In this document: in pieces, positions 31,052 through 33,129 of the stretch
How positions within the stretch are numbered: position 1 is the stretch's first letter
Layout of the letters: every line of letters starts with the position of its first letter
Assembly: GCF_900105095.1 (NCBI RefSeq)
Contig: NZ_LT629743.1
Span: 1,674,001 to 1,738,000 of the forward strand
Source: Erythrobacter sp. HL-111
GTDB taxonomy: Bacteria; Pseudomonadota; Alphaproteobacteria; Sphingomonadales; Sphingomonadaceae
Length of the DNA stretch: 64,000 bases
Direction: 5' to 3'
Program-made: the position numbers and the translations under genes
The notes under the pieces: model-generated
Databases searched by the model: none
The model's input: the letters and a program-made list of their open reading frames with translations, nothing else
Told to the model about the DNA's origin: nothing

Positions 31052-32011
31052 TCAGCCGTCCGCCGCGAGCAGGCGGGCGTAATGGTCGCGCAGGGTCTCG
31101 CTGCCGAATTCGGGCGTCGCCTCGGCCGAATAGGCCCCGGTCGCGGGGTCGAACACCAGCATGCTCTCGGTCGCGTAGTAATGCGCGATCCGCGCGTATT
31201 CGGCCTTTTCGGCGAACCATTCGGAAAACGGTGCACCGAGGCCGAGCACGCGCGCGGCGGCCGTGAACATTCCGGGCGGGACCGACCTGAAAACCGGCTC
31301 GCGTCCGGCAAGCTCGCACAGCAGCGCACCCTGCTCCCTGAGGCTGATCGCCGGGCCGGGGCCGCCGACGGGCAGGATCCGGCCGCGCTTGTCCGGATCG
31401 GTCACGCAAAGCGCGAGGAAGCGGCCGAGGTCGGCGTCGCCGATCGGCTTGCAGCGCGTCAGTTCCCCGTCGCCGAACACGAGGAAGGGCTTGCCCGCCC
31501 GCACCCGCCTGACCTGCCCGGAAAGCGACTTGAAGAAGGCGGTGGGGCGCACGATCGTGTGCGCGAGCGGGCTTTCGGCGAGCCGCGCCTCGAAGCGCAG
31601 CTTTTCGTGCTGGAAGGCGAGCCGGGGGCGCTGGACGCAGATCGCGGAAAGCAGGATGAAATGGTCGGCGCTGCCCGCGTCTTCGGCCGCTTCGAGCAGG
31701 GCGAGATTGGCCGCGTAATCGACCGCGCGCGCGTCCCGTGGCGAGCCCGAGCGCGAGGCGATGCAGGACATCACCGCCGCGGGGCGCGCCTCGGCGAAGA
31801 CCGCAGCGAGCGCGGGGCCGTCGGCAAGGTCGGCAAAATGCACCGCGCAGCCCCAGCTTTCGAGCGCGGCGGCAGCCTCGCGGCCCGAGGCGCTGTCCCG
31901 CAGGACGCAGGCGACCGCGTGACCCGCCTCGACCAGCGCGCGCGCGGCGGCGTGGCCGATCGTGCCGCTCGCTCCGGCGAGGAGCACCTTGCGCCCGGAT
32001 TGCGATTCCAT
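31052..32011 (-). CDS. bciA: Divinyl (proto)chlorophyllide 8-vinyl-reductase, BciA type
   Basis: The protein (319 residues) has an NAD(P)-binding start (KVLLAGASGTIGHAAARAL). It then matches BciA closely: FILLSAICVQRPRLAFQHEKLRFE (~residues 115-140), IVRPTAFFKSLSGQVRRVRAGKPFLVFGDG (~150-180), CKPIGDADL and ILPVGGPGPAIS. BciA reduces the 8-vinyl group of divinyl chlorophyllide with NADPH in bacteriochlorophyll synthesis. The start at 32011 has GGGAGGGG 10 bases upstream; 32050 is also open. It lies 134 bases downstream of LPOR on the same strand. Confidence 0.85.
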   Translation of the reverse strand: MESQSGRKVLLAGASGTIGHAAARALVEAGHAVACVLRDSASGREAAAALESWGCAVHFADLADGPALAAVFAEARPAAVMSCIASRSGSPRDARAVDYAANLALLEAAEDAGSADHFILLSAICVQRPRLAFQHEKLRFEARLAESPLAHTIVRPTAFFKSLSGQVRRVRAGKPFLVFGDGELTRCKPIGDADLGRFLALCVTDPDKRGRILPVGGPGPAISLREQGALLCELAGREPVFRSVPPGMFTAAARVLGLGAPFSEWFAEKAEYARIAHYYATESMLVFDPATGAYSAEATPEFGSETLRDHYARLLAADG

Positions 32012-32145
32012 CCCCTTGCGACCCCTCCCCATGCTTGCGGGACGGTTCATGGATGACAGGCGGAGCGCTTGTCAAAGCCCCGTTCGAGCGCGGCGATCAG
32101 GGCGCGGGGGTTCCGGCTCGGAATGCGACGGCGCGCGAGACAAAC

Positions 32146-33129
32146 TCACGCGGGTTCGCGGACGCGCTCCTCCAGTCCGACGAGCCTTGCGGTGAGGTCC
32201 CACAATTCGCGCGCGCGCGCAGCGTCGGTGGCCCTCGGCGACAGGCTCTGGGCGAAGGCCGCGCGGCCTTCGCGCTGGCGATTGCCCCAGCTCCAGTGGA
32301 CGCCCGATCGCGCGAAGGCCGGATCGGCAACCACGTCCGCGACCCGCTCCCCCGCGAGCGGCTGCGAGACATAGCCCCCGGTGATGTTCTTCTGGAACCA
32401 CGGGAAGATCCGCTGGAAGGCCCTCGGCGCATGGCGGAACAGCGGCGTGTCCGCGACGCAGCCGGGATAGAGCGTGGTGAAGACGATGCCGGTCGACTCG
32501 TGGAAGCGGGCGTGGAATTCGCGGCTCATCATCATGCAGGCGAGCTTGCTGTCCTTGTAGGCCTTGCCCGGCTTGAACGGCTTGCCGTCGATCATCGCGT
32601 GCGGCCCGGTGAAGCCCGCCTTCAGCCCTGCGAAATCGCCGAGGTCGGCGGGGGCGGGAATCGGGATCTTACCGCCGAATTCCTCGGAATTGGCGGTCAC
32701 CGTGCCGAGCGTCACCAGCCGGGCGTCGCGCGCCCGGACGAGTTCGTCGAGCAGCAGGTTCGCCAGCAGGAAATGCCCGAAATAATTGGTCGCCACGGAA
32801 AGCTCGAAACCTTCCGGCGAGCGCAGCGGCTCTGCAAGGCGCGGCATATAGGTCGCGGCGTTGCAGACCAGCGCGTCGAGCGGGCGGTCGAACGCACGGA
32901 ATTCCTCCGCGAAGGCGCGCACGCCCGCAAGACTGCCGAGATCGAGCCGCATGATCGTGCGGCCTTCCGGCGCGATGCCGATCTCGCGCGCGGCGGCCTC
33001 GGCCTTGGCGGTGTCGCGGCACGCCATGACGACGTGCCAGCCGCGCGTGACGAGCGCCTTGGTCGCCCACAGGCCGATGCCCGACGAGGCCCCGGTGATG
33101 ATGCAGATCGGCGTGTGACCCGTAGCCAT
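32146..33129 (-). CDS. por: Light-dependent protochlorophyllide oxidoreductase (LPOR)
   Basis: The protein (327 residues) is an SDR enzyme with LPOR-specific signatures: TGASSGIG (12-19), WHVVMACRD (31-39), [13 protein letters not shown] (84-96), YKDSK with Tyr191/Lys195, LYPGC with Cys224, [12 protein letters not shown] (249-260) and GVHWSW (276-281). It would reduce protochlorophyllide to chlorophyllide with NADPH in the light. Length matches cyanobacterial POR. The Cys after YKDSK (Cys199 in Synechocystis) is replaced by Ala197, with Cys at 198. GGGAGGG precedes the start. A generic SDR is the alternative, but the motif set is strong. Confidence 0.83.

Follow-up and report, generated by a model that had tools for sequence, protein, structure and literature searches.

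Local deletion as the probable origin of the LPOR-bciA neighbourhood in Erythrobacter sp. HL-111

The genome of Erythrobacter sp. HL-111 (G000) appears to encode a working light-dependent protochlorophyllide oxidoreductase (LPOR) outside its photosynthesis gene cluster. Comparison with its two nearest relatives, G013 and G051, makes it quite probable that this gene is ancestral in the trio and that it came to adjoin bciA, an 8-vinyl reductase gene, through a deletion of ~4.1 kb in the G000 line. Coordinates below refer to the window, the whole 64,000-nucleotide stretch that was analysed, unless stated otherwise. The features discussed are:

29950 to 30969, minus strand: ArsR-type regulator joined to a methyltransferase, which opens the met locus downstream of BciA
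31052 to 32011 (ORF open up to 32050), minus strand: BciA-type 8-vinyl reductase, 319 aa, assigned from homologue names and reaction-centre co-occurrence
32012 to 32145, minus strand: intergenic region between LPOR and BciA, with no terminator-like pattern detected
32097 to 32108, minus strand: exact match over 12 bases to the end of the phytase gene in G013, a probable deletion scar
32146 to 33129, minus strand: LPOR, 327 aa, assigned from TIGR01289, solved LPOR structures, tree and dN/dS
33224 to 34588, minus strand: NodT-type outer-membrane efflux protein (TIGR01845, 246.1 bits), the upstream neighbour of LPOR

Gene order at the LPOR site in the nearest relatives

The G013 locus reads AcrB, NodT, LPOR, a TonB-dependent receptor (951 aa), a phytase (347 aa), BciA, ArsR-methyltransferase, metF and metH, and Pfam matches confirmed the identity of the receptor (PF00593 and PF07715) and of the phytase (PF02333, 191.8 bits). 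G051 keeps this order but has two additional long ORFs, one of 957 aa on the opposite strand that separates NodT from LPOR and one of 1110 aa that separates the phytase from BciA. These two ORFs (L123 6723-9596 and 14890-18222) are missing at these places in G013 and in G000. The NodT-type gene adjoins LPOR in G013 as it does here, and lies 2.9 kb from LPOR in G051. With the receptor and phytase between them, LPOR and BciA are 4.2 and 7.8 kb apart in G013 and G051, respectively; in G000 the receptor and phytase are missing between the two genes. The LPOR region is an unstable, fast-changing stretch that gains and loses genes.

The two sides of the gap were located by alignment with L122, in which window positions 35130-32129 match 7434-10443 and window positions 32108-26630 match 14525-20000. 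The 4,081 bases of L122 that are absent from G000 hold the receptor and nearly the whole phytase. What is left in G000 is the 12-mer at 32108-32097, which includes the phytase stop codon and has no second copy on either strand of the window. A phytase was detected (E<=1e-40) in 59 of the 114 genus genomes including G000, where the only match is a 36%-identical gene elsewhere in the genome; the phytases of G013 and G051 stand at the LPOR-BciA site.

We propose that LPOR was already present in the ancestor of G000, G013 and G051, where it would have lain between an RND/NodT efflux operon and the TonB-receptor/phytase pair. This pair would itself have stood upstream of a long-established stretch of bciA, ArsR/methyltransferase and metF. 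A deletion of ~4.1 kb in the G000 line would then have removed the receptor and phytase, leaving LPOR beside bciA. The simplest interpretation is that the G000 line lost these genes; that G013 and G051 gained them is less likely. A point against deletion is that the scar consists of only 12 G+C-rich bases. Gain keeps some weight because further members of the genus have their phytase at different places (G112, ~8 kb from BciA; G077, ~59 kb away; G007, on another contig). Given also the extra ORFs of G051 and the instability of the region, the ancestral order may have differed from that of G013.

A gain would have the receptor and phytase inserted into an already adjacent LPOR-BciA pair in a common line of G013 and G051, with G000 keeping the older order. 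The BciA and met-gene trees keep the trio together (100/99 and 99/100, respectively) with its internal order unsettled: the BciA tree pairs G013 with G051 weakly (83/17), in which case one insertion would suffice, and the met-gene tree leaves the trio unresolved. The LPOR tree, in contrast, pairs G000 with G013 (100/88). Insertion must also contend with the presence in G000 of 12 bases that match the end of the phytase gene, and with the lack of a close phytase in a genome whose genus carries one in 58 of its 113 other members. On balance, we regard insertion as unlikely and retain deletion in the G000 line as the preferred explanation.

Mobile elements were also observed upstream of the pair. 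The RND pump gene at 34585-35151 is reduced to its last 188 residues at the start of an insertion sequence (~35135-36794) whose DDE_Tnp_1_4 transposase is in two ORFs; the pump ORFs of G013 and G051 are long. A second copy of this insertion sequence, 99.3% identical over 1662 aligned positions and with a single 456-aa ORF, is found at genome positions 1,422,263-1,423,924, ~20 kb from bchX. Further along the window, at 37777-39360, a phage-type integrase adjoins tRNA-Thr (39173-39248). An integrated element is likely, given the integrase beside the tRNA gene and the low G+C content of 35.2-39.2 kb (0.609 vs 0.675 for the window).

Distribution and ancestry of LPOR and BciA

The original prediction took the side-by-side genes as a pair acquired or kept as a unit, and their distribution does not bear this out. 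LPOR is sporadic in the genus, being found in 7 of 114 genomes, G000 included (E<=1e-60). A sample of 397 genomes of the family, with at most five candidates scored per genome, gave LPOR in 13. BciA was detected in 84 of the 114 genus genomes (E<=1e-50) and the reaction centre in 85: both are present in 82, BciA only in 2, the reaction centre only in 3 and neither in 27. BciA thus tracks the reaction centre across the genus, with one present alone in 5 of 114 genomes, and both are present in all seven LPOR genomes of the genus. In the wider set of 19 LPOR genomes, 18 have a BchL match (1e-60), the sole exception being G032, which has reaction-centre genes. Eight have a BciA match at 1e-30. The eleven that have none at this threshold belong to the groups g21 and g81 (e.g. 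L114 and L115), which may use BciB, an enzyme unrelated to BciA.

The surroundings of BciA were read in 17 other genus members, chosen from the 84 with BciA either because they carry LPOR or because their BciA match scored high. In 16 of them, BciA is followed downstream on the same strand by ArsR-methyltransferase and metF, with 0.1 to 8 kb between; in the 17th, G058, only ~2.1 kb downstream of BciA were covered. This met neighbourhood is the same whether or not a genus member carries LPOR. Of the four LPOR-bearing genus members outside the trio, G007, G032 and G112 have LPOR and BciA on different contigs and G077 has them ~298 kb apart; in G220, which belongs to another genus, the distance is ~1.8 Mb. 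The LPOR loci of these four (L124-L127) have no DNA match to ours outside the LPOR region, and among themselves such a match was found in G077 with G112 only.

Named genomes supplied 80 LPOR loci; 47 come from outside the cyanobacteria, and only 26 of these have at least 3 kb on both sides. BciA lies in the LPOR flank in 2 of the 47: in L052, bciA and bchC are divergent from LPOR, and in L024 an opposite-strand ORF stands between LPOR and BciA. Any of the 18 cluster genes tested is near LPOR in 6 of the 47, with the carotenoid genes in L032 and L066 left uncounted. Among plasmid records, LPOR was found in four (three of D. shibae and one of Pseudanabaena) and BciA in three others, and none matched both.

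Togetherness across relatives, as expected of a transferred LPOR-BciA unit, was looked for and not found. Transfer of LPOR and BciA as two genes that have stayed together since is therefore very improbable, even though the genes are neighbours on one strand here and BciA also flanks LPOR in L052 and L024. The unchanging met neighbourhood of BciA argues against it, as do the separation of the genes in 5 of the 8 genomes that have both, the 11 of 19 LPOR genomes with no BciA match, the genes that intervene in G013 and G051 and the plasmid result.

The LPOR tree was built from 98 matches, from which 8 identical rows were removed to give 90, or 91 with the window's own protein. Its root was set on the cyanobacteria, and it has no bearing on the published picocyanobacterial origin. 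Cyanobacterial and non-cyanobacterial sides are separated at 100/97, and the window's LPOR falls inside the 58-row non-cyanobacterial side. The LPORs of G000, G013 and G051 group together (100/99), and the other four Erythrobacter LPORs form a separate branch (100/92) that adjoins Polymorphobacter (100/99). This branching suggests two LPOR arrivals in Erythrobacter; it does not establish them, because forcing all seven Erythrobacter LPORs together costs 24.6 log units and a single clade is not rejected by the AU test (p 0.0881). In the same tree, the LPOR of L057, a Gemmatimonadaceae bin, sits within the Sandarakinorhabdus group, pointing to either a transfer or a misbinned contig.

Identity of the two genes and of the host

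The ORF at 32146-33129 scored 470.5 bits against TIGR01289, the NCBIfam LPOR equivalog, for which the cut-off is 331.35; the second NCBIfam family was a general short-chain dehydrogenase (SDR) model at 129 bits. In a search of solved-structure sequences, the top seven were all LPORs at 331-469 bits, among them one labelled Thermosynechococcus and two chloroplastic, and the best non-LPOR chain scored 65 bits. Residues T12, G13, G17 and G19 (TGxxxGxG), R38, T143, Y191, K195 and C224 are present here and do not vary across the 91 aligned LPORs, and C37 is conserved in 89 of 91. C89 and C198 are also present, in variable columns (62 of 91 and 16 of 91, respectively). The feature set is therefore complete here, comprising the NADPH motif, the catalytic Tyr and Lys and four Cys, two of them in variable columns. 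We take these residues to fill the roles named. The tree consists of LPOR rows without general SDRs, and the separation from SDRs rests on the NCBIfam scores and solved structures. By these sequence comparisons, for which the feature classes came from PMC7947762, the 327-aa protein is a genuine LPOR. That it is a general SDR merely resembling LPOR has a negligible probability and was rejected, since only the shared Pfam SDR domain speaks for it, and the TIGR01289 score, structure matches, tree position and conserved residues all speak against it.

The ORF downstream of LPOR is, judging by its homologues, the only BciA-type 8-vinyl reductase of the genome; the runner-up match in a genome search scored 24.9 bits. 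Its start is probably 32011, as both the G013 gene and a 319-aa database entry of the same protein point there. Among the best 120 of 8000 proteins scored, at least 27 are named "divinyl chlorophyllide a 8-vinyl-reductase" and the remainder have generic names or none. NCBIfam and Pfam gave no BciA family among the matches to this ORF, only weak SDR and related models. The protein would be of the same enzyme kind as Rhodobacter sphaeroides BciA, as described in PMC4214422; this likeness rests on homologue names and reaction-centre occurrence.

The genome is a single contig of 3,191,868 bases, with the pair at 1,705,052-1,707,129. Family-checked photosynthesis genes span 1.4437 Mb (bchX) to 1.4713 Mb (acsF), the latter ~234 kb from the pair, and include two reaction-centre genes at 1.4486-1.4502 Mb and BchL at 1.4647 Mb. 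Ten cluster ORFs each exceeded at least one curated cut-off (BchN, BchB, BchL, BchM, PuhA, AcsF, PpsR, BchX, BchG and PufL); further cluster genes were named by eye. BchL, BchN and BchB, a type II reaction centre and AcsF, by which aerobic anoxygenic phototrophic bacteria (AAPB) are scored in PMC7947762, were all found. The named homologues include proteins of E. ani, E. rubeus, Erythrobacter sp. KY5 and Porphyrobacter sp. LM 6, in keeping with a host in Erythrobacter. From its gene content, the host is a phototrophic alphaproteobacterium with a complete dark-operative enzyme, and LPOR as a substitute for a lost dark enzyme was rejected. The original prediction had named LPOR, BciA, a phototrophic alphaproteobacterium and, for the stretch examined, a position outside any visible photosynthesis cluster. 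All of these stand: the protein does not group outside the LPORs, and the genome does not lack bacteriochlorophyll genes.

Predicted function, joint expression and relation to known LPORs

The dN/dS values of LPOR over three species pairs were 0.158, 0.171 and 0.171, and that of BciA was 0.205 in the one pair computed, indicating that both genes are kept by purifying selection. LPOR is predicted to convert protochlorophyllide to chlorophyllide by a second, light-driven route that tolerates oxygen, alongside the oxygen-sensitive BchLNB. Whichever route supplies the (proto)chlorophyllide, BciA would reduce its 8-vinyl group. In the assays given in PMC7947762, 10 of the 11 AAPB LPORs tested showed activity in one assay or more and one showed none; ElLPOR and PdLPOR favour the monovinyl substrate, and DsLPOR and three others the divinyl one. 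In vivo, BciA acts preferentially on 8-vinyl chlorophyllide (PMC4214422), the compound that LPOR makes directly from divinyl protochlorophyllide. From these published preferences, LPOR and BciA could act in turn.

It is conceivable, though doubtful, that the deletion created a young LPOR-bciA operon, transcribed as one message, in which BciA best uses the divinyl product of LPOR. No sigma-70-like promoters or terminators were found at 30900-34700, where shuffles expect 0.0 and 2.3, respectively; this absence speaks neither for nor against joint transcription. The RNA fold of the intergenic stretch is no better than that of shuffles (z 0.20). PpsR-type sites, scanned as TGT-N12-ACA, which we take to be the consensus, were absent from the 230-400-base stretches upstream of LPOR or BciA in G000, G013 and G051. 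This says little, because the scan gave only 6 sites across the window and 9 over 80 kb surrounding the photosynthesis cluster.

That LPOR is known from some aerobic anoxygenic phototrophs, as the prediction had noted, is already published, Erythrobacter included (PMC7947762). By sequence comparison, the LPOR here appears to be of this ordinary kind, a single gene outside the cluster. The AAPB LPORs in that paper, from Erythrobacter/Porphyrobacter dokdonensis DSW-74, E. litoralis and Dinoroseobacter shibae, are of the same family and likewise come from hosts with DPOR and a type II reaction centre. In D. shibae, LPOR is also a single gene, on a plasmid, with no cluster genes within 8 kb. Our protein is 72-73% identical to that of E. 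dokdonensis and 73.8% to that of D. shibae; it differs in belonging to the three-species branch (100/99) and in standing beside bciA. The betaproteobacterial loci L040, L052, L060, L078, L094 and L098 have LPOR near bacteriochlorophyll or reaction-centre genes, L052 with bciA and bchC, in contrast to the ~234 kb that separate LPOR from the photosynthesis genes here. The main text of PMC7947762 does not mention bciA, and in literature on LPOR with aerobic anoxygenic phototrophs, bciA and Erythrobacter, a search that mostly left subscription papers outside its scope, no title concerned the LPOR-BciA pair.

These results add a three-species LPOR line to Erythrobacter, a genus that LPOR may have entered twice. 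They also indicate that pathway genes lying side by side need not have travelled together, as the genomes of relatives explain this pair by local loss. If this reading is true, G000, G013 and G051 would form a test system for whether an adjacency born of deletion leads to joint expression. If the operon did form, it would be a naturally occurring example of an operon born when intervening genes were lost, and two close relatives would still preserve the separated arrangement.
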